DNA of 64,000 nucleotides from positions 1-64,000 of the forward strand of contig NZ_RQJX01000019.1 in NCBI RefSeq assembly GCF_003850045.1. Direction: 5' to 3'. This DNA is from Aeromicrobium camelliae. Its GTDB lineage: Bacteria > Actinomycetota > Actinomycetes > Propionibacteriales > Nocardioidaceae. The position numbers and the translations under genes are program-made. The notes under the pieces are model-generated. The model saw nothing but the letters and a program-made list of their open reading frames with translations. It did not search any database and was not told where the DNA came from. Below are positions 5,533-60,804 of the stretch, one piece after another (positions within the stretch are counted from its first letter, which is position 1; each line of letters opens with the position of its first letter).

Positions 5533-5555
5533 GACGCTCCTTCTTCCGCGGGCGG

Positions 5556-8723: not shown

Positions 8724-10313
8724 TCATAGGCGGAACACCCCGTAGCCGCGGGCGCCCTCGACGGGCGCGTTGTGGATGGCCGAGAGGCAGATACCGAGGA
8801 CCGTGCGGGTGTCCCGCGGGTCGATGACGCCGTCGTCGTAGCCGAGCCCGGACGTGAAGTACGCGAGCGACTCGTTCTCGATCTGCTGCTCGACGAAGGC
8901 GCGCATCTGCGCGTCGCCCTCCTCGTCGTACGGCTGTCCCTTGGCCTCGGCCGCCTGCCGAGCGACGATCGAGATGACGCCGGCGAGCTGCGCCGGGCCC
9001 ATGACGGCGGACTTCGCGCCGGTCCAGCTGAACATGAACCGCGGGTCGTACGCGCGGCCGCTCATCCCGTAGTTGCCCGCGCCGTACGAGGCGCCGAGCA
9101 CGACGGAGATGTGCGGGACCTGCGAGTTCGAGACCGCGTTGATCATCTGGGCGCCGTGCTTGATGATGCCGCCCTGCTCGTACTCCGCGCCGACCATGTA
9201 GCCGGTCGTGTTGTGCAGGAACAGCAGCGGAGTGTCGACCTGGTTCGCGAGCTGGATGAACTGCGCGGCCTTCTGGGCCTCCGCGCTGAACAGGACGCCC
9301 TGCGCGTTCGCGAGGATGCCCACCGGGTAGCCGTGCACCTGCGCGAAACCGGTCACCAGGCTCGGCCCGTACAGCGGTTTGAACTCGTCGAACTCGCTGC
9401 CGTCGACGAGGCGGGCGATGACCTCGCGCGGGTCGAAGGGGATCTTGAGGTCCGTGGGGACGATGCCGAGCAGCTCCTCCGGGTCGAACAGTGGCTCGGC
9501 GTAGTCGACGGCCGGTGCCGGCCCGTGCTTGCGCCAGTTGAGCCGCCGCACGATCTGGCGGCCGAGCCGGATGGCGTCCCGCTCGTCGACGGCGAGGTAG
9601 TCGGCGAGCCCGGACTGCCGTGCGTGCATCTCGGCGCCGCCGAGCGATTCGTCATCGGCTTCCTCACCGGTGGCCATTTTGACCAGCGGCGGGCCCCCGA
9701 GGAACACCTTCGCGCCCTCCTTGACCATCACGACGTAGTCGCTCATGCCCGGGATGTACGCGCCGCCGGCGGTGGAGTTGCCGAAGACGAGGGCGATCGT
9801 CGGGCGCCGGTCCGCGCTGGCCTCGGTGAGGTTGCGGAAGGACTTGCCGCCGGGGATGAAGATGTCCTTCTGAGTCGGCAGATCGGCCCCGCCGGATTCG
9901 ACGAGGTTGATCGTCGGCAGGCGGTTCTCGGCGGCGATCTGCGCGGCGCGGAACCCTTTCTTGACGGTGACCGGATTGCTGGAACCACCCTTCACCGTCG
10001 GGTCGTTGGCGACGATCATGCACTCGACGCCCTCGACGACGCCGATGCCGGTGACGATCGATCCGCCGACCGCGAAGTCCGTGCCCCAACCGGCCAGCGC
10101 GCCCAGTTCGAGGAACGGCGAGTCGGGGTCGAGAAGGAGTTCGATGCGCTCGCGGGCGGTGAGTTTTCCTCGCCGGTGGTGGCGCTCGACGTACCGCTCT
10201 CCGCCGCCGGCGAGCGCTTTCGCGTGCTGCTCGGCGAGGTCGGCGACGCGTTCGAGCATCGCGCTGCGGTTCTCCTCGAACGCCGGTGACGTCGGCTCGA
10301 TCGCGGTCTTCAT
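8724..10313 (-). CDS. Acyl-CoA carboxylase beta subunit (carboxyltransferase)
   Basis: A carboxyltransferase of 529 residues starting MKTAIEPTSPAF, with the RGKLTARERIELLLD segment near the N-terminus. Two crotonase-like halves carry the family motifs SGGADLPTQKDIF, GNSTAGGAYIPGMSDY and LGASYGAGNYGMSGRAYDPRF. This pattern is closest to methylcrotonyl/geranyl-CoA carboxylase beta chains rather than propionyl-CoA carboxylase. The start is set by GGAGGAG 5 nt before ATG 10313; an in-frame extension to 10403 is not needed. About 70 bp separate it from the alpha gene, and it lies in the same operon as both dehydrogenases. Confidence 0.9.
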   Translation of the reverse strand: MKTAIEPTSPAFEENRSAMLERVADLAEQHAKALAGGGERYVERHHRRGKLTARERIELLLDPDSPFLELGALAGWGTDFAVGGSIVTGIGVVEGVECMIVANDPTVKGGSSNPVTVKKGFRAAQIAAENRLPTINLVESGGADLPTQKDIFIPGGKSFRNLTEASADRRPTIALVFGNSTAGGAYIPGMSDYVVMVKEGAKVFLGGPPLVKMATGEEADDESLGGAEMHARQSGLADYLAVDERDAIRLGRQIVRRLNWRKHGPAPAVDYAEPLFDPEELLGIVPTDLKIPFDPREVIARLVDGSEFDEFKPLYGPSLVTGFAQVHGYPVGILANAQGVLFSAEAQKAAQFIQLANQVDTPLLFLHNTTGYMVGAEYEQGGIIKHGAQMINAVSNSQVPHISVVLGASYGAGNYGMSGRAYDPRFMFSWTGAKSAVMGPAQLAGVISIVARQAAEAKGQPYDEEGDAQMRAFVEQQIENESLAYFTSGLGYDDGVIDPRDTRTVLGICLSAIHNAPVEGARGYGVFRL

Positions 10314-10353
10314 GGCATCTCCTCCGTCGTCGGCTCGTGCTGTGTGCGCGGCA

Positions 10354-11511
10354 TCAGTACCCCAGCAACTTCGCGGCCAGATCGTTGAGCACTTCGGTGG
10401 CACCGCCCCCGATGCCGAGCAGGCGGGCGTCGCGGTAGTGCCGGTCGATCTCCGACTCGCGCATGTAACCCATGCCGCCGAAGATCTGCACCGCCTCGTT
10501 CACCACCCATTCGACGGCTTCGACGGCCTGGTTCTTGGCGATCGCAGCGTCGAGGATGAGCTGCGGGTCGGTCGTGTCCCCGCTGTCGGCGGCTCGTTCG
10601 ACCGCCCGGCGCGTCAAGGCGCGCGCGGCTTCGGTCCGCCGGTGCATGTCGACGAGCTTGTGCCGGATCACTTGTCGGCTGATGAGCGGACGGCCGAATG
10701 TCTCCCGCTCTCGGGCGTAGCCGACCGCGAGGTCGAGGGCGCGCTGGCAGGTGGCGTAGGCCTGCACCGCGAGCGACAGCCGCTCGGTGACGAACTGCTG
10801 CATCACGAGGTAGAAGCCGCCGTTCTCCTCGCCGACGAGGTTGGCGGCCGGGACCCGGACGTCGTCGAAGGCGAGTTCTCCGGTGTCCGAGCAGTGCCAG
10901 CCCATCTTGCGCAGGTTCCGGCTGACCGAGAAGCCCGGCGTGTCCGTGTCGATCACGATGAGGCTGATGCCACCGTGTCCCGGATCGCCCGTGCGGACCG
11001 CAGTCGTCACGAAGTCGGCGCGGACGCTGGAGGTGATGAAGGTCTTGGCGCCGTTGACGACGTAGTGGTCGCCGTCGCGTACCGCTCGGGTGCTGATGCC
11101 AGCGACGTTGGAGCCGCCTCCGGGCTCGGTGATGCCGAGCGACCCGATCAGTTGACCGGCGAGAGTGGGGCGCACGTACCGGTCGATGAGCTCGCGATCG
11201 CCTGTGTCGACGATGTGCGGGAGGGCGATGCCGTGCGTGTAGAGGGAGGCCAGCAGCCCCGTCGAGCCACCGTTCTCGACGATCGCCTCGGAGACGATCG
11301 AGATGTCGATGAGATCGCCGCCGTCGCCACCGACCGACTCGTCGAAGCCGATGCCGAGGAAGCCGGCTTCGGCCGTCTCGCGGTGCAACGACCGCGGCAG
11401 CTGACCGTCGTCTTCCCACTGCGGAAGGTGCGGGGCGATGCGGTCGCGGGTGAACGCCGCCACCGCTTGGCGCAGGGCGATCCGCTCCGGCGTAGCCCAT
11501 CGATCGGTCAT
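10354..11511 (-). CDS. Acyl-CoA dehydrogenase (second copy)
   Basis: A protein of 385 residues starting MTDRWATPERIALRQ, with a GAGGAG ribosome-binding site. It has the usual LGITEPGGGSN segment, the flavin/acyl-binding middle domain and the C-terminal FGGMGYMRESEIDRHYRDAR segment typical of the family. It sits between the carboxylase beta gene and the AtuA-like gene. It probably acts before the carboxylase, oxidising a saturated branched acyl-CoA such as citronellyl-CoA or isovaleryl-CoA, but specificity is not visible. An in-frame extension upstream to 11625 overlaps the AtuA-like gene and is rejected. Confidence 0.9.
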   Translation of the reverse strand: MTDRWATPERIALRQAVAAFTRDRIAPHLPQWEDDGQLPRSLHRETAEAGFLGIGFDESVGGDGGDLIDISIVSEAIVENGGSTGLLASLYTHGIALPHIVDTGDRELIDRYVRPTLAGQLIGSLGITEPGGGSNVAGISTRAVRDGDHYVVNGAKTFITSSVRADFVTTAVRTGDPGHGGISLIVIDTDTPGFSVSRNLRKMGWHCSDTGELAFDDVRVPAANLVGEENGGFYLVMQQFVTERLSLAVQAYATCQRALDLAVGYARERETFGRPLISRQVIRHKLVDMHRRTEAARALTRRAVERAADSGDTTDPQLILDAAIAKNQAVEAVEWVVNEAVQIFGGMGYMRESEIDRHYRDARLLGIGGGATEVLNDLAAKLLGY

Positions 11512-11527
11512 CGGATTCTCCTCACCC

Positions 11528-13270
11528 TCACACGAGGAGTTCGCGGGGAATGTCGACGAGCCGGGCGCGGAGCCACTCACCGACGGCCTTGGCCTGCGGA
11601 TCGAAACGCGTCGACGACGCGACACCGTCGCCGAGCAGCCCGTCGATGACGACGTTGACGGCCGCGAGGTTCGGCAACGGGTGGACGGTCACGGGCAGCC
11701 CGGCAGCTTCGGGCAGCAGTTCGCGCACCCGAGCGGCGTCGAGCGTGTCGGCGAGCCAGGCGAAGGCATCGGCCCGGCGGGGGTGGTCGGCCGGGATCCA
11801 GACGCCCACGTTGGCCGCGCCGCCCTTGTCGCCGGAGCGCGCGTAGGCGAGCCGGCCCAACGCCTTGCGCACGGTCTCGCCGAGTGGTGCAGATTCGTGG
11901 CCCTCCGGGCTGCCGTACCGCGAATCTGCACCACTCGCGGGGGACGGCGAGGTGTCGGATGCGGCGTGTTCCGGGGGCGGGATGTCGATGCGGGTGCCGT
12001 CGGCGAGCACCACGACGTGCGGCACGTCCGACTGGGGCAGGTAGACCGCGCGATAGATGCCGAACGGCGACGCGGCACTGGGCGGGGCGGTGACATGGAA
12101 GCCCGGGTACGAGGCGAGGGCGAGTTCGACCGCCGCGCCGCTGAACGCCCTGCCCGCTGCCGCGGGATCGCTGCTCTTGACGTGGCAGCGCAGGAGAGCC
12201 GCGGCTTCGGGCTCGGTGGCGGGGTCGGGCCGGTCGGTGCGGACCAGTTCCCACGAGATCTCGTCGATCGCGACGCCGCGGAGCGCGTCCTCGAGTTGGG
12301 CGCGCACCCACGCTGCCTTCTGCTCGATGTCGAGGCCGGTGAGGACGAACTCGACCTGGTTGCGGAAGCCGCCGAGACTGTTGAGTGCGACCTTGGTCGT
12401 GGGCGGCGGAGCCTCTCCCCGGACGCCACTGATGCGCACCCGATCGTCGCCGTCCTGCTCGAGACGGATGGTGTCGAGGCGGGTCGCGACGTCGGGGTTG
12501 AGATAGACCGGACCGCCGATCTCGTACACGAGCTGGGCGGTGACGGTGTCGACGGTGACGGCTCCCCCGGTGCCCGGGTGCTTGGTGATGACGCTCGTGC
12601 CGTCCTCGGCCACCTCCGCGATCGGAAAACCGAGCGGGCGGCTCGTGTCGATGTCGGCGAACCCGGAGAAGTTGCCGCCGGTGGCCTGCGCCCCGCATTC
12701 GACGACGTGCCCGGCCACGACCGCCCCGGCCAGCCGGTCCACGTCCTCGCGGCCCCACCCGAACTCGGCGATCGCCGGGCCGACGACCACGGACGCATCG
12801 GTGACCCGGCCGGTCACGACGATGTCGGCACCGTGGCGCAGCGCCTCGGCGATGCCGAAGGCGCCGAGATAGGCGTTGGCGGTCAGCGCCCCGTCCCACC
12901 CGTACCCGCCGGCCTTCGCGACCAGGTCGTCGCCTTCGACATGCGCGACGACCACCTCGACGCCCTGCTCCGCCGCCACCTCGCGGACGCGCTGCGCGAG
13001 GCCGGCGGGATTGAGGCCGCCGGCGTTCGCGACGATGCGCACCCCGCGTACCTTGGCGAGGGCGAGGCAGTCGGACAGCTGACGCAGGAAAGTCCTGGCG
13101 TAGCCGAGGTCGGCGTCCTTCATCCGGTCCTTGCCGAGGATGAGCATCGTCAGCTCGGCCAGGTAGTCGCCAGTCAGGTAGTCCAACGGGCCGCCCTCGA
13201 GCATCTCGCGCATCGCCGACAGCCGGTCGCCGTAGAAGCCCGAACAGTTGCCCACGCGGATGGTTCGCAC
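11528..13270 (-). CDS. AtuA-family (DUF1446) protein with an in-frame palindrome in its linker
   Basis: The 580-residue protein begins at GTG 13270 (RVGNCSGFYGDRLSA), with a GGAAGG-like ribosome site. Residues 1-430 form the DUF1446/AtuA domain (VANAGGLNPAGLAQ, VVTGRVTDASVVVGP). Residues from about 465 form the small C-terminal AtuA domain (LAYARSGDKGGAANVGVW). AtuA proteins are needed for acyclic terpene (citronellol/geraniol) catabolism in Pseudomonas, but their chemistry is not settled. Residues 445-463 are encoded by a 57-bp palindrome, exactly 19 codons, sitting in the interdomain linker. It is the first gene of the operon. Confidence 0.85.
   Translation of the reverse strand: MRTIRVGNCSGFYGDRLSAMREMLEGGPLDYLTGDYLAELTMLILGKDRMKDADLGYARTFLRQLSDCLALAKVRGVRIVANAGGLNPAGLAQRVREVAAEQGVEVVVAHVEGDDLVAKAGGYGWDGALTANAYLGAFGIAEALRHGADIVVTGRVTDASVVVGPAIAEFGWGREDVDRLAGAVVAGHVVECGAQATGGNFSGFADIDTSRPLGFPIAEVAEDGTSVITKHPGTGGAVTVDTVTAQLVYEIGGPVYLNPDVATRLDTIRLEQDGDDRVRISGVRGEAPPPTTKVALNSLGGFRNQVEFVLTGLDIEQKAAWVRAQLEDALRGVAIDEISWELVRTDRPDPATEPEAAALLRCHVKSSDPAAAGRAFSGAAVELALASYPGFHVTAPPSAASPFGIYRAVYLPQSDVPHVVVLADGTRIDIPPPEHAASDTSPSPASGADSRYGSPEGHESAPLGETVRKALGRLAYARSGDKGGAANVGVWIPADHPRRADAFAWLADTLDAARVRELLPEAAGLPVTVHPLPNLAAVNVVIDGLLGDGVASSTRFDPQAKAVGEWLRARLVDIPRELLV
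11881..11937. repeat. CGAGTGGTGCA-family palindrome inside a coding sequence
   Basis: Perfect 17-bp arms: CGAGTGGTGCAGATTCG at 11881-11897 and its reverse complement at 11921-11937, with a loop containing a small GCCC/GGGC stem. The arm core recurs at 32411-32490 and 52425-52502 in intergenic DNA. Here it lies within the AtuA-like gene, keeps the frame and encodes a linker peptide. Confidence 0.85.
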
Positions 13271-13385
13271 GCGCTCAGCCTTCCGCGGATCTCACAAACA
13301 GTCAACCCTGCTTGTTTTTTCTTAGCCCCCTACCGCGTGGACAAGCGCGCTCGGCCTGCCGCCGCTTCTCACCTAGCCTGGATTC

Positions 13386-13651
13386 ATGAACGACGCGCAG
13401 ACGTGGACCGTGATCGGCAGTCTCGTCACGCTCATGCTCGCGTTCACGGCCCTCAGGTCGGCATGTTCAGCCACCCGCTCGACGCTCGGTTCGACGCGCT
13501 CACCACGCTCGTGACTGTCAGGTTCGAGCAGGTCGATGGGCGCTTCGAGCACGTCGAGAAGCGCCTCGACCGCATCGAGCACCGGGTCGACAATCTCGAC
13601 CGCGACGTCACCGCCATCACCCGTCGACTCATGGGCGGCGCGGAGGACTGA
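13386..13651 (+). pseudogene. Small membrane-anchored coiled-coil protein, frameshifted
   Basis: ATG 13386 opens MNDAQTWTVIGSLVTLMLAFTAL, a typical single membrane anchor. After about 23 residues the frame must shift by one base (around 13450) to continue as QVGMFSHPLDARFDAL and a heptad-like helix (RFEQVDGRFEHVEKRLDRIE, HRVDNLDRDVTAITRRL) ending at 13651. Joined, the parts make a protein of about 88 residues of a common actinobacterial type: one TM helix followed by a coiled coil, function unknown. The downstream part could be expressed alone from ATG 13463. A strong hairpin terminator follows directly. I cannot tell a true mutation from a sequencing indel. Confidence 0.55.
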
Positions 13652-13655
13652 TCGC

Positions 13656-13683
13656 CTGGAGTCATCCCGTGGGATGACTCCAG
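13656..13683 (+). terminator. Hairpin terminator
   Basis: A perfect 13-bp inverted repeat, CTGGAGTCATCCC (13656-13668) and GGGATGACTCCAG (13671-13683), with a 2-nt loop. It starts 5 bp after the stop of the small coiled-coil gene. There is no clear T tract, as is usual in high-GC genomes. Confidence 0.75.
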
Positions 13684-13766
13684 CACCGCTTCTCCTCCTC
13701 CGGAGGCACGCGGCTTCCACCTCATGGCCGACGAAGCGAGGGGTCCGGAATTTCTACGGTCGAGTT

Positions 13767-14543
13767 ATGACTCAGACCTCTGCCACCCACTCCCCCTCGG
13801 CAACGGCCGACGGCATCGCCGCGCGCGCCCGGGCGCTGACCAAGACCTACGGCCGCGGCGCCACCGAAGTGCAGGCCCTGCGCGGGGTCGACCTCGACCT
13901 CCCGGCCGGTCGCTTCACCGCCATCATGGGCCCGTCCGGCTCCGGCAAGTCGACGCTCATGCACTGCCTGGCCGGACTGGACACGCCCACCTCCGGTGAG
14001 GTGACCGTCGGCGGCCAGCAGCTCGAGCGCCTCGACGACACCGCGCTCACCCGCTTCCGCCGCGACCACATCGGGTTCGTCTTCCAGGCGTTCAACCTGC
14101 TGCCGATGCTGACCGCCGAGCAGAACATCCTGCTCCCGATCGACCTCTCCGGACGCAAGCTGAACGCCTCGACCCAACATCGGTTCGACGACGTCGTCGA
14201 CGTCCTGGGCATCCGTGAACGCCTCGGGCACCGGCCGAGCGAACTCTCCGGCGGGCAGCAGCAGCGCGTCGCCATCGCCCGCGCCCTGGTCACCGAGCCG
14301 GACATCGTCTTCGCCGACGAGCCCACCGGCAACCTCGACAGCGAGTCGTCACGCGAGGTGCTCGACTTCCTGCGTCGCTCGTGCCGCGAGTTCGGCCAGA
14401 CGGTCGTCATGGTGACGCACGAGATCGACGCGGCATCGTACGCCGACGACGTCCTCGTGCTCGCCGACGGCCAGATCCGCGCACATCTGGAACGCCCGAC
14501 GTCCGAGACCCTCGTGTCGGCGCTGCAGGGGGTGCGCGCCTGA
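13767..14543 (+). CDS. ABC transporter ATP-binding protein (MacB/LolD type)
   Basis: A 258-residue ATPase with Walker [10 protein letters not shown], a Q-loop in [12 protein letters not shown], signature [15 protein letters not shown], Walker [14 protein letters not shown] and an H-loop VTHE. The GNLD after Walker B and the [19 protein letters not shown] segment place it with the MacB/LolD/FtsE-like group that energises FtsX-type permeases. It partners the permease encoded next, whose ATG overlaps this stop as TGATG. ATG 13767 is chosen; open frame upstream of it overlaps the preceding coiled-coil gene and terminator. Such systems move peptides, lipids or drugs or act mechanically; the substrate is not visible. 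Confidence 0.93.
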
Positions 14544-18925: not shown

Positions 18926-18991
18926 CCCAGATTTGCGCGCCATCCGTCAACCGACGGGGGTCTGGGTCAGCGGATTGGGCGCAAATCTGGG
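18926..18991. repeat. CCCAGATTTGCGC-family palindrome between convergent genes
   Basis: Arms CCCAGATTTGCGC (18926-18938) and GCGCAAATCTGGG (18979-18991) pair perfectly; flanking GACC/GGTC extends the pairing with one bulged C. A CCGTCAACC segment lies inside, as in the other copies. It ends exactly before the stop codon of the minus-strand xdhC gene and can terminate both converging transcripts. Confidence 0.8.
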
Positions 18992-20122
18992 TCAGCCCTC
19001 GGCGTGGATGGACTGGTCGGTGTCGGTGAGCGGCTTGCCGGTGCCTCCCCAGCGCAACGCGACGAGCTCGGCCGCCACCGCCACGGCCGTCTCCTCCGGG
19101 GTGCGTCCCCGCAGGTCGAGGCCGATCGGGCTGTGGAGGCGGGCGAGCAGATCCGGCCCGAGTCCGGCCTCGCGCAGCCGCTCCATGCGTTCGTCGTGCG
19201 TGCGGCGCGAGCCCATGGCGCCGATGTAGAAGGGGCGCTGCGACCCTTCCAACCGCAGAGCGACGTCGAGCAGCGGCACGTCGAACTTCGGGTCGTGGGT
19301 CAGTACGCAGATGACCGTGCGGTTGTCGATCCGGCCGGCGTCGACCTCGGCCTTGAGGTAGCGGTGCGGCCAGGCGACCACGACTTCCTCGGCGGCGGGG
19401 AAGCGCGCGTCGGTGGCGAAGACCGGCCGGGCGTCGCAGACCGTGACTCGGTAGCCGAGGAAGGCGCCCTGGCGGGCGACGGCGGCGGCGTAGTCGATGG
19501 CGCCGAAGACGATCATCCGCGGGCGCGGCTGGAAGGACGAGACGAACAGCTGCATCTCGGTCTCCATGCGCTGGCCCTCCGGCCCGTAGCGCAGCAGTTG
19601 CGAGCGCCCGGCTTCGAGCAGCCCGTGGGCGTCGTCGAGCACCGCATCATCAGCCCGCGCGGAGCCGAGCGACCCCTCCGCACCGTCAGGGCGGATCACG
19701 AGGTGGCGCCCGACGCGCTCGGGGTCCGGGTGGGCGACGACGGTGGCGACCGCGACCGGACGGCCCGCCGCGACGTCCTCCGCGATGCCGCCGAGCTCAG
19801 GGAAGGTGCGCTGGTCGACCGGCTCGACGAAGACGTCGACGATACCGCCGCAGGTCAGGCCGACGGCGAAGGCCTGATCATCGCTGTAGCCGTAGCGACG
19901 CAGGGCGGGACGGCGGTCGGCCACGACGGCCTGGGCGAGCTCGTAGACGTCGCCCTCCACACAACCACCGGATACGGAACCGACCACCGTCTCGTCCGGC
20001 AGCACCACCATCGCGGCGCCGGGTTGCCGCGGCGCCGACCGCGCCGTGCCCACCACGGTGGCGAGGCCGACCGTCGCGCCGGTCTCCCACGCCCGGACGA
20101 GGTCAGTGAGGATGTCGTGCAT
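18992..20122 (-). CDS. XdhC/CoxI-family molybdenum-enzyme maturation protein
   Basis: A 376-residue protein starting MHDILTDLVRAWETG. The N-terminal XdhC domain carries GSVSGGCVEGDVYE and LTCGGIVDVFVEP with the conserved cysteines. The C-terminal Rossmann-like domain carries GAIDYAAAVARQGAFLGYRV and a terminal IGAMGSRRTHDERMERL. XdhC proteins bind molybdenum cofactor, promote its sulfuration and deliver it to xanthine-dehydrogenase-type enzymes. Such an enzyme is encoded in the other arm of the cluster (39748-43564). It is the last gene of the minus-strand operon that starts with carbamate kinase. Confidence 0.92.
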   Translation of the reverse strand: MHDILTDLVRAWETGATVGLATVVGTARSAPRQPGAAMVVLPDETVVGSVSGGCVEGDVYELAQAVVADRRPALRRYGYSDDQAFAVGLTCGGIVDVFVEPVDQRTFPELGGIAEDVAAGRPVAVATVVAHPDPERVGRHLVIRPDGAEGSLGSARADDAVLDDAHGLLEAGRSQLLRYGPEGQRMETEMQLFVSSFQPRPRMIVFGAIDYAAAVARQGAFLGYRVTVCDARPVFATDARFPAAEEVVVAWPHRYLKAEVDAGRIDNRTVICVLTHDPKFDVPLLDVALRLEGSQRPFYIGAMGSRRTHDERMERLREAGLGPDLLARLHSPIGLDLRGRTPEETAVAVAAELVALRWGGTGKPLTDTDQSIHAEG

Positions 20123-26122: not shown

Positions 26123-26213
26123 CGACTTTTGTCCAGTTGCGGCCCTCCCCCGGCTTTTGGCCAGTTGCGGCCCTCACCGGGGCGTCGGCCGGGCCACAAC
26201 TGGCCAAAAGTCG
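26123..26213. repeat. GGCCAGTTGCGGCCC-family palindrome, two direct arms plus one inverted
   Basis: Three 23-nt copies. Direct copies lie at 26123-26145 (core TTTTGTCCAGTTGCGGCCC) and 26151-26173 (core TTTTGGCCAGTTGCGGCCC). An inverted copy lies at 26191-26213 (GGGCCACAACTGGCCAAAAG). Either direct copy can pair with the inverted one. It lies in the 410-bp gap between the divergent carbamate kinase and TetR genes and fills most of it together with the TetR operator. Confidence 0.8.
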
Positions 26214-26343
26214 GTCGCCTGGGCCGGCGCGTCCGCATCACGACATGCCCGCGATCTAGACCCCCTCGATTGAACGGAACGCCCTCGGAATTCAGGCCTC
26301 TTGCCACCCCACTTCGGGGCGCTTACCGTGAGGATCCGAGCCA

Positions 26344-32410: not shown

Positions 32411-32490
32411 CGAGTGGTGCACATGTGTTCGCGAGTGGTGCAGTGTCGCGACGATCGCGTTCGTTCGGTCGCGACATTGCACCACTCGCG
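32411..32490. repeat. CGAGTGGTGCA-family palindrome, two direct arms plus one inverted
   Basis: The main arms are 23 nt (32430-32452 and 32468-32490) with one mismatch; the left core is GAGTGGTGCAGTGTCGCGAC. An extra direct copy of CGAGTGGTGCA lies at 32411-32421. It sits between the convergent arsC and hydantoinase B genes, where it can terminate both. Confidence 0.85.
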
Positions 32491-37567: not shown

Positions 37568-37651
37568 AAGGCGGTGAGTAGGCGTCCATTCCGGGCCGCG
37601 GAATGGACGCATACTCACCGCCCAGTGCGGAGAACGGACGTTTACTCACCG
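37568..37651. repeat. GGTGAGTAxGCGTCCATTCC-family palindrome, one arm duplicated
   Basis: Left arm 37568-37590 and right arm 37598-37620 (23 nt each, one mismatch) form a hairpin with a 7-nt loop. A second, more diverged copy of the right arm lies at 37630-37651. It occupies the 229-bp gap between the amidase stop and hyuA start, where it could attenuate transcription into hyuAB. Confidence 0.82.
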
Positions 37652-45042: not shown

Positions 45043-45157
45043 TCGAGTGTTCTGGGCGCGGTCCTCGCCGGTTGTGCTACCGATCACGTTCGCCCCTGTC
45101 CCGCCAAGGAAAACCGCCCCGCCGAGCCCCACTCGCCCCGCCCGCAGCGCGTGGCTG

Positions 45158-45268
45158 GAGGATTACCAGGTTCAGTAGTTTTCTTGTCACTCCTCCAGGT
45201 GAACTCTCCCGGAGGAGTGACAGAACACCCGGAGAGGTGAAGAAAACCTCCATAACCTGGTAATCCTC
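45158..45268. repeat. ATTACCAGGTT-family compound palindrome
   Basis: Outer perfect 15-bp arms GAGGATTACCAGGTT (45158-45172) and AACCTGGTAATCCTC (45254-45268). An inner perfect 11-bp stem GTCACTCCTCC (45186-45196) pairs with GGAGGAGTGAC (45211-45221). It is the same family as 60713-60804. It lies between the PucR stop and the permease promoter and could terminate pucR transcription. Confidence 0.85.
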
Positions 45269-50770: not shown

Positions 50771-50777
50771 GGTCACC

Positions 50778-50853
50778 AAGGCCCCAGATTTGCGCCCAGT
50801 CCGTCAACCCCGGCCCCGGCCGGTTGACGGATGTGGCGCAAATCTGGGGCCTT
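50778..50853. repeat. CCCAGATTTGCGC-family palindrome between convergent genes
   Basis: Perfect 19-bp outer arms AAGGCCCCAGATTTGCGCC (50778-50796) and its complement (50835-50853). A perfect 9-bp inner stem CCGTCAACC (50801-50809) pairs with GGTTGACGG (50822-50830). This is the most symmetrical copy of the family also found at 16941 and 18926. It can terminate both the DUF1116 and the opposing membrane-protein transcripts. Confidence 0.9.
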
Positions 50854-50859
50854 CGTGCG

Positions 50860-52424: not shown

Positions 52425-52502
52425 CGAGTGGCGCAAAGTGATCACCGAGCGGCGCAGAATGGGGGCGGAATCGCCGGATTCTCCCCCACCTTGCGCCACT
52501 CG
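52425..52502. repeat. CGAGTGGCGCAA-family palindrome, two direct arms plus one inverted
   Basis: Left arm CGAGTGGCGCAA (52425-52436) and right arm TTGCGCCACTCG (52491-52502) pair perfectly. A second direct, diverged copy CGAGCGGCGCA lies at 52445-52455 and, with the following GGGG run, can also pair with the right side. It is a variant of the family at 11881 and 32411 (GGTGCA changed to GGCGCA on both arms). It lies between the convergent DMT transporter and Fpg genes. Confidence 0.8.
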
Positions 52503-57544: not shown

Positions 57545-58113
57545 CACTGGCTCTCCACCACGTCGCCGGCCGGGACGGCCGCCGGTCGCGCCATCGACGG
57601 GGCGGTGCTGAAGCGTCCATCAGCGAGCATGAGGGTGGCGTGCGCCCATTGAGCGGCCCGCGGGTCGTGGGTGACCATCACGATGGTCTGGCCGAGATCA
57701 TCGACGAGGTCGCGCAGCAGCCCCAGCACGTCGTCGGCCGTCGCGGCGTCGAGTGCGCCGGTGGGCTCGTCGGCGAAGACGATGTCGGGGCGGGCCGCGA
57801 GCGCTCGGGCGATCGCGACGCGCTGCTGCTGGCCGCCGGACAGCTCGGCCGGGCGGCGGTCCAGGAGGGGTCGCAGGCCGATGCGGTCGATCACCTCGTC
57901 CCTCCATGAGGGGTCGCCCGTGTCACCGGCCAGCCGCAGCGGCAGCGTGATGTTCTCGGCGACGCTCAACGAGGGCAGCAGGTTGTAGGACTGGAAGACG
58001 AAGCCGACTGCCTCGCGCCGGACCAGCGTCCGGCGGGTCTCGTTGAGCCGGGAGACCTCCCGGCCACCGATGAACACCTGCCCGGTCGTGGGGGTGTCGA
58101 GGCCGGCGGCCAC
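57544..58113 (-). pseudogene. ABC ATPase fragment lacking Walker A (partner of the FtsX permease)
   Basis: Homology runs from VAAGLDTPTTGQVFIGGREV through FVFQSYNLLPSLSVAENITL, signature [20 protein letters not shown], Walker [14 protein letters not shown] and VTHDPRA to the stop at 57544. The first 45 or so residues, including GPSGSGKST, are missing. Upstream of VAAG the sequence turns directly into the sense strand of a histidine kinase gene running the other way. The open frame to 58239 is that shadow and not a real N-terminus. The product cannot bind ATP normally. Confidence 0.8.
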
Positions 58114-60562: not shown

Positions 60563-60712
60563 AGAACTCTCAGACGGTTACGGATGCCCGCTACCAAGTC
60601 ACGCAGGATTGCGAGTGTCGTCGGGCCGAGCGTCGGCTGCGCACATGGGGCAGCGCGCTCGTTCTCCTCCACCCTACCGGTCCGACCCTCACTCCACCCA
60701 ATCGCGAGGCTG

Positions 60713-60804
60713 GCGGATTACCAGGTTACGTAGGTTTTCCCTCACTCCTCCGGGCGAATTCACCCGGAGAAGTGCCAAGAAATCTACGTAACCTGGTAAT
60801 CCGC
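60713..60804. repeat. ATTACCAGGTT-family compound palindrome
   Basis: Outer arms are 21 bp and perfect (60713-60733 and 60784-60804), core GGATTACCAGGTTACGTAG. An inner stem, CTCCGGG against CCCGGAG around 60748-60769, extends with one mismatch to ACTCCTCCGGG. It shares the outer core and the inner TCACTCCTCC with the copy at 45158-45268. It lies just downstream of the GNAT gene and upstream of the helicase. Confidence 0.88.

Follow-up and report, generated by a model that had tools for sequence, protein, structure and literature searches.

Here, we describe a 57-bp palindrome that is read in frame within an AtuA-like gene of Aeromicrobium camelliae, at a linker between two protein domains where six sequence-distinct palindrome families are found across species of Aeromicrobium, a genus of soil bacteria, and a seventh was seen in Janibacter. 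Among the small repeats of bacterial genomes, palindromic ones are some of the most common. The reading we favour, with moderate confidence, is that this palindrome belongs to a genome-specific family of non-autonomous mobile elements, spread by means of a nuclease whose gene such palindromes bracket, and is tolerated in AtuA as a spacer. The window analyzed is a stretch of 64,000 nt (contig NZ_RQJX01000019.1, positions 1 to 64,000), and its features are collected in Table 1, where G000 is the A. camelliae genome (3.06 Mb in 40 contigs) and G023 is a sister genome whose AtuA protein is 92% identical.

Table 1. Positions of the AtuA-like gene, its palindrome and other palindromic elements in the window.
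Feature	Positions	Strand	Remarks
AtuA-like gene, 580 aa	11528..13270	-	host of the element
N-terminal domain, Pfam AtuA PF07287, residues 4-421	12008..13261	-	coordinates converted from residues
Interdomain linker, residues 434-470, predicted disordered	11861..11971	-	from Pfam bounds and AlphaFold
C-terminal domain, Pfam AtuA_ferredoxin PF23544, residues 471-569	11564..11860	-	coordinates converted from residues
57-bp palindromic element, shortened form	11881..11937	.	inside the AtuA reading frame
Left arm CGAGTGGTGCAGATTCG	11881..11897	+	
Right arm	11921..11937	-	inverted copy of the left arm
23-base loop	11898..11920	.	part common to the orthologous copy in G023
AGATTTGCGC-family element, intergenic	18926..18991	.	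site empty of it in G023; the AGATTTGCGC family brackets nuclease gene G000:C38:117144
78-bp CGAGTGG-family element, intergenic	32411..32488	.	present in G023 too
Palindrome GGTGAGTAGGCGTCC...	37570..37622	.	resembles flanks of nuclease gene G000:C38:86954
AGATTTGCGC-family element, intergenic	50774..50857	.	
78-bp CGAGTGG-family element, GGCGCA subfamily, intergenic	52425..52502	.	

The two arms of the palindrome are complementary at 17 of 17 positions around the loop, giving the AtuA linker an inverted-repeat score of 17, compared with a maximum of 12 over 100 shuffles. A single strand of the element folds at -26.8 kcal/mol (shuffle mean -12.1, z -6.45; equaled by 0 of 200 shuffles), and the box CGAGTGGTGCA, with at most one mismatch, occurs 8 times in the window where 1.74 occurrences are expected. 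Some palindromes do arise by chance in GC-rich DNA, as the shuffles show, but that chance or a repeat-rich coding sequence produced this one, instead of an inserted element, is next to impossible: family copies lie elsewhere in the genome, the reversed CGAGTGGYGCA control pattern gave 0 hits, and the scores are far above those of shuffled sequence. The reading frame stays open across the element, whose 57 bases make up 19 codons (residues 445-463). A first-pass annotation had placed the palindrome at these coordinates within the gene, as a stop-free insert between two domains; the arms, the fold relative to shuffles and the two Pfam domains all agree with it. AlphaFold, run with an alignment of 30 sequences, gives a mean pLDDT of 36 for residues 441-450 and 38 for residues 451-460, with 79 and 83 in the adjoining blocks, so that the linker is predicted to be disordered. 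AtuA would tolerate the element peptide as a translated spacer. The AtuA and AtuA_ferredoxin parts match as separate pieces in the second copies of genomes G003 and G015.

The palindrome belongs to a family with the ends CGAG/CTCG (family A below). Its pattern, CGAGTGGYGCA followed after 30-60 bases by an inverted copy, is present in 18 of 58 genomes, all Aeromicrobium, and has 34 hits per strand in A. camelliae, many of them nested. Measured by box positions (n=27), copies in this genome are 78 bp (21 copies), 57 bp (5) or 144 bp (1) long. The usual 78-bp form has a 21-bp arm beside the 57-bp palindrome, in the order arm > arm > loop < arm, and the copy in AtuA is without one 21-bp arm of this form. 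In G023, the orthologous copy still has the additional 21 bp on one side and shows part of the same loop, in a palindrome that has decayed. Because the G023 orthologue carries this longer, decayed copy, the insertion in AtuA is older than the split of A. camelliae and G023, and the window copy appears, on sequence comparison, to be a shortened descendant of an insertion that predates the two species. The missing 21 bp would probably have been lost through direct-repeat recombination, with the frame kept. Linker residues held in common by an orthologue with non-palindromic DNA, which the first-pass annotation had named as evidence against an insertion, are found in part, in that G023 partly matches with less palindromic DNA; we attribute this to decay of the common insertion.

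A different explanation is that a hairpin is kept at this position for its function: structured RNA or DNA between the two domains might, for example, slow translation or determine how stable the mRNA is, and any palindrome would serve. The coding-strand RNA of the element forms a hairpin of -41.6 kcal/mol (z -5.09), and different palindromes have been acquired repeatedly, as such a function would require; but most Aeromicrobium linkers fail a palindrome test (31 of 47, see below), the sister copy in G023 has decayed, and 0 Rfam families matched positions 10000-14000 of the window at up to E 1. Arm covariation was considered as well, and permutations as high as the observed value numbered 0 of 2000 for pooled family A, 0 of 2000 for pooled family B and 33 of 2000 for family B in G007, but 258 of 2000 within the GGCGCA subfamily, where the covariation vanishes, and 266 of 2000 for family C, so that no covariation is claimed. 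A hairpin kept for function is accordingly very unlikely.

AtuA genes were compared in steps, with 30, then 45 and then 101 genes. The families at the Aeromicrobium linker are A (CGAGTGG), B (ACTTTTG), C (AGATYTGC), D (TTCGACAGG), E (GGTGGATNTGCGACC) and F (in A. terrae), and family H (GACTTCTTGCGCAA) is found at the same linker in Janibacter sp. HTCC2649. Genome searches covered six of these seven families (A, B, C, D, E and H), and each of the six is dispersed in its host genome. The family E box pattern (at most one mismatch) has 57 hits in G014, 19 in G011, 4 in G020 and 1 in G000, family H has 30 hits in Janibacter versus 1 in A. terrae, and the family C pattern has one hit each in four genomes of other genera as well. 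A uniform palindrome rule, which asks for a score of 13 or more that also beats each of 200 shuffles, is passed by 16 of 47 Aeromicrobium linkers and failed by the other 31, with more recognized by family signature; in the outgroup, 5 of 6 rows fail it. Overall, 23 of 101 linkers pass, in a test set from which most of the named Nocardia rows and every named Mycobacterium row are absent. With windows taken elsewhere in the same genes as the control, scores of at least 14 occur in 22 of 101 linkers versus 1 of 708 windows, and scores of at least 13 in 24 of 101 versus 4 of 708. The expectation that the 19 residues should be missing from most orthologues is therefore only half true: 16 of 47 Aeromicrobium linkers carry a significant palindrome, and more do by signature, but these palindromes belong to several distinct families.

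For the phylogenetic comparison, labels A-H were assigned by us from the box sequences; labeled rows that fail the uniform rule include G009, G003, G026, G030, G008, G023, G010, G014 and G027, with family E among them. On an AtuA tree built without the linker, the family labels require 13 changes, where the minimum for 8 states is 7. Four pairs of sister rows have different labels: G035 (A) and G015 (D), at a branch with values of 99/98; G036 (none) and G027 (D), at 100/80; G013 (A) and RYN200 (none), at 100/100; and G014 (E) and G020 (C), at 95/74. Species with and without a linker palindrome coexist within one clade.

Such turnover could come about by insertion or by replacement. One clean filled/empty pair was found, at window positions 5546/5547, where alignment shows that G023 has gained 60 bp, a palindrome that belongs to another family; no clear target duplication accompanies this one pair. 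At several other intergenic sites, compared by eye, G000 and G023 carry different palindromes, or one carries a palindrome and the other none. Linkers that carry a palindrome of family B, C or D (126-138 nt, for an element of about 42-60 bp) are no longer than palindrome-free ones (117-138 nt), which points to replacement, whereas linkers with family A (123-204 nt) are mostly longer, which fits simple insertion. The lengths of the B, C and D linkers favor the reading that a single older linker palindrome has been replaced in place by incoming families, an old address with a changing tenant, as do the different families in the sisters G035/G015 and G014/G020 and the different palindromes at intergenic addresses of G000 and G023. 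A precedent is IS1272, whose targets, according to PMC5678879, are inverted repeats and which produces no duplication of the target; it differs in having its own transposase, where the candidate here is a Vsr-like nuclease and replacement is suggested by comparison. Against replacement in place stand the longer family A linkers and the 31 Aeromicrobium and 5 outgroup rows that fail the palindrome test. We regard this reading as possible, but rather doubtful.

The elements were also placed relative to genes, with in-gene calls made from the codon scores of the two flanking stretches (a control on the training genes, under a slightly looser rule, recognized 115 of 120 positions). Only 4 of 104 sampled elements lie within genes, all four in AtuA; the sample holds elements of families A, B and C with intact boxes from eight genomes, with partial lists for G006, G007 and G018, and omits elements near the ends of stretches, the G006 AtuA copy among them. 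The remaining 100 elements lie between convergent (45), tandem (24) or divergent (2) genes or in unclear surroundings (29). A survey of syntenic DNA from six genomes (460 kb in total) turned up 68 strong palindromes, whatever their family; 5 of them lie in genes, all 5 in AtuA. A further 400 kb of the A. camelliae genome holds 36 palindromes, one of them in a gene (L386:19642-19683); its 14-base arm recurs in no other of 396 loci, and it was not counted as a family element. By eye, the frame that hosts it looks like a MarR-like regulator.

The first-pass annotation had held that this family can move into genes and be tolerated there. This stands for the AtuA linker and not for free movement into genes, and the search for other genes with the same insert yielded none but AtuA among the 104 family elements and the 68 palindromes. 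That bears on the simplest account of all, in which palindromes land at random and survive in AtuA because its linker tolerates any in-frame peptide, with the nuclease genes described below unrelated. Such drift agrees with the predicted disorder of the linker, with the coexistence of palindrome-bearing and palindrome-free species in one clade, with the decayed palindrome in G023, and with a family A core that is mostly stop-free in every phase (95, 94 and 78 of 98 readings in the respective phases). If the linker were merely permissive, however, other genes should carry elements; none does in the sample, so a neutral spacer alone is insufficient, and the one palindrome in a gene other than AtuA is without a second copy. 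Several distinct families at one linker look, moreover, like a preferred address, and we consider random landing alone unlikely. That AtuA alone is occupied may reflect a long-standing palindrome address, placed where two domains meet that match as separate pieces in those second copies of G003 and G015.

What moves these elements was approached through the genes that they enclose, which led to a nuclease cassette, a possible source of mobility that the first-pass annotation had not anticipated. No Y1_Tnp domain (RAYT-type, PF01797) was detected in any of 37 Aeromicrobium genomes, some of them incomplete; among all 58 genomes searched, 2 have the domain, and these belong to another genus, while a control gave a positive in 5 of 14. 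Palindrome pairs about 1.1 kb apart recur, and in G006 and G007 they enclose a gene of one type. The G006 protein matches DUF559 above its cut-off, and REase_MTES_1575 and AbiEi_4 below their respective ones; 18 of 18 cassette proteins match both DUF559 and AbiEi models (17 of them had been chosen by DUF559), and NCBIfam returned only a far, sub-cut-off match. In a structural model of the cassette protein (mean pLDDT 94.8), residues 1-180 match the AbiEi antitoxin 6y8q_A (Z 10.9, rmsd 6.2, 174 aligned) and residues 185-288 match the homing endonuclease I-Bth0305I, 3r3p_A (Z 10.2, rmsd 2.5, 95 aligned), with a further match to Vsr, 1vsr (Z 7.8). Foldseek recovers 6y8q at E 1.8e-4 and 3r3p weakly, at E about 0.1, and a profile search with the cassette protein finds 3hrl (E 0.00064) and 3r3p (E 0.0014). 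Residues E188, D221, E232, H238 and D248 are conserved in the cassette proteins and, we take it, fit a metal-dependent nuclease of the Vsr/I-Bth0305I class. As modeled, the C-terminal domain of the cassette protein is of the Vsr/I-Bth0305I fold and its N-terminal half is AbiEi-like; the fold is thus common to I-Bth0305I and Vsr endonucleases, to which the cassette adds the AbiEi-like half and the bracketing repeats.

Bracketing was quantified in two sets of nuclease loci, with flanks called matching at a repeat score of at least 14. Set 1 comprises 19 Aeromicrobium DUF559 loci from Pfam, one per genome, and set 2 comprises 30 of 102 matches to our own profile. Flanks match in 18 of 19 loci of set 1, versus 23 of 342 cross-genome pairings of loci, and in 28 of 30 loci of set 2, versus 25 of 828 cross-genome pairings and 14 of 300 placements drawn at random in the A. 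camelliae genome. In set 2, 14 of the 30 loci have palindromes on both sides and 11 on a single side; for the random placements the counts are 2 and 22 of 300. The two failures in set 2 (L438 and L455) are partial genes, and L438 passes as L413 in set 1; counted as unique genes, with four in both sets, 43 of 45 pass at least once. Among 11 loci from other genera of the order, inspected by eye, matching palindromes on both sides were seen in 3 (L403, L415 and L426) and none in 5. Bracketing alone could also result if nuclease genes insert beside palindromes or use them as terminators. With a bracketed nuclease gene, of a type open to testing, in nearly every Aeromicrobium case examined, experiments could ask directly what moves the repeats.

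A link between these cassettes and AtuA is seen in 4 of 19 genomes (G006, G007, G014 and G020), where the linker palindrome matches a nuclease flank of the same genome at a score of at least 14, compared with 16 of 494 genome-to-genome pairings, some of which have a family in common; the flanks covered are those of part of the 4-13 profile matches per genome, so that misses say little. The match in G011 scores 13, and coordinates give the same link for the family B linker palindrome of G018. No flank among those examined belongs to family D.

Under the favored reading of a nuclease-spread element, the bracketed nuclease would recognize its palindrome and cut the DNA, and repair of the break would leave a copy of the palindrome, or of the entire cassette, where the cut was made. 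An incoming palindrome would sometimes replace a resident one, and within AtuA only in-frame, stop-free outcomes would survive, with the peptide serving as a neutral spacer. Weighing against this reading are the confinement of in-gene elements to AtuA in the sample, for which a neutral spacer alone does not account, the linker-to-flank match in no more than 4 of 19 genomes, and the loci of other genera, where 5 of 11 showed no matching palindromes. A more far-reaching proposal, which we offer tentatively as falling somewhat short of probable, is that Aeromicrobium, and perhaps other actinobacteria, has a RAYT-independent counterpart of REPtrons. The palindrome families would then be the ends and miniature derivatives of the AbiEi-Vsr cassette, whose nuclease would recognize palindromes and put its own there instead, a form of homing that replaces palindromes, and fixed addresses, one protein linker included, would keep a palindrome while its family changes.

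Palindromes in frame within open reading frames are already known from Rickettsia and others (available text of PMC3733652, PMC2229807 and PMC10969869), and the likeness to Rickettsia palindromic elements that had been suggested for this insert is an apt analogy as far as a translated, in-frame palindromic repeat is concerned. It does not extend to the range of genes entered: in the available portions of PMC2229807 and PMC10969869, the Rickettsia elements measure 105-146 or about 150 bp and lie in many unrelated genes, whereas the Aeromicrobium elements in genes were all in AtuA (4 of 104 and 5 of 68). The Aeromicrobium element is also shorter, at 57 or 78 bp versus 105-150 bp, although RPE-4 and RPE-6 are counted among short repeats in what is available of PMC3733652. 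The same text reports a CGTC terminus for R. conorii RPE sequences, which the CGAGTGG family does not have, and CGTC-type REPs are said there to be without a dedicated transposase.

REP and REPIN sequences with their RAYT genes (REPtrons) are likewise short, genome-specific, intergenic palindromes, mostly between convergent or tandem genes, with a bracketed gene of mobile type. They differ in their transposase, as none of the Y1 type was found in the 37 Aeromicrobium genomes and the bracketed gene here is AbiEi-Vsr-like, and in the end tetranucleotide GTAG, a REP/RAYT feature according to the accessible part of PMC3733652, which the CGAGTGG family lacks. That source also describes recB of Xanthomonas, where two species carry different REPs at about one site; at AtuA, six families occur within one genus, with a seventh in Janibacter, and the site is an interdomain linker. 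MITEs, too, are small repeats that do not move on their own and have a coding relative with matching ends; the nuclease genes, with the repeats that flank them, would be a candidate for such a relative here. In our case the whole element is palindromic, and no clear target duplication was seen at the one clean empty site. No paper on Aeromicrobium palindromes or on nuclease-bracketed palindromes was found in the open-licence literature of PubMed Central, preprints excluded. The AtuA case is a variant of the known in-frame palindromes, and the nuclease-bracketed palindromes may go further. Across the 47 Aeromicrobium genomes, the AtuA linker preserves a record of how palindromes arrived repeatedly at one coding site, and it lends itself to studies of target choice and of the way mobile DNA turns into protein sequence.

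Some further observations concern the CGAGTGG family and the window itself. Two CGAGTGG elements in A. camelliae (G000:C8:18639-18695 and 19744-19821) bracket a nuclease-type gene (profile E 9.2e-29) that we read as frameshifted, and in G030 a CGAGTGG element lies, by coordinates, beside a nuclease gene on one side; this gene and this neighbor make up the cassette evidence for the CGAGTGG family itself. Genes resembling RNase Z and acetyltransferases between other CGAGTGG pairs (G000 C1 and G034) were judged by eye, from their translations, to reflect chance pairs. Three of the four flank families of A. camelliae nuclease genes have a look-alike in the window.

The AtuA gene of Janibacter sp. 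HTCC2649 (locus L055) groups within Aeromicrobium on the tree (98/94, on a long branch), and the palindrome in its linker, the stretch between the Pfam AtuA and AtuA_ferredoxin domains, is one belonging to the Janibacter sp. HTCC2649 genome itself. Gene transfer followed by local insertion of a palindrome is a possible history for this gene. Most of the 27 AtuA genes of genus g14 have linkers of a conserved RPSPYPAP...LTRR type, and one of the 27 (genome G256, borderline) passed the uniform palindrome test (score at least 13 and above all of 200 shuffles). In the linker of G106 (L338), a repeated peptide, VEPPLVASEKA, takes the place of a palindrome. Since the two domains match separately in the second AtuA-like copies of G003 and G015 (see table), the counterpart of the linker there may be a gene boundary.

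Coordinates of palindromes in the window and of second AtuA-like copies
Feature	Location	Description
Palindrome, arms CTTTTGGCCAGTT	window 26150-26214	similar to ACTTTTG family
Palindromic element GGATTACCAGGTT..., two copies	window 45148-45229 and 60703-60804	roughly 80-100 bp
Second AtuA-like copies	G003:C169:12766-14456; G015:C135:3586-5279	two domains match as separate pieces

The ACTTTTG family of dispersed palindromes, also found in AtuA linkers, is rare in the A. camelliae genome and common in G006, G007 and G018. The sister genome G023 lacks the first GGATTACCAGGTT copy, and no cassette (AbiEi-like plus Vsr/homing-endonuclease-like gene bracketed by matching repeats) was seen for this element. 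CTACTCGACCACC / CGTATCGAGACC palindromes are clustered on contig C224 of G023 (L197-L200), where some sites correspond to a different palindrome at the matching window site. Another palindrome (L386:19642-19683) sits within a regulator-like reading frame, with no second copy among the loci compared.

Two window stretches of 188 nt each, 14187-14374 and 57713-57900, are 72% complementary and lie 43 kb apart. By eye, the reading frame holding the former resembles an ABC-transporter ATPase, and the two stretches are therefore probably paralogous genes on opposite strands.
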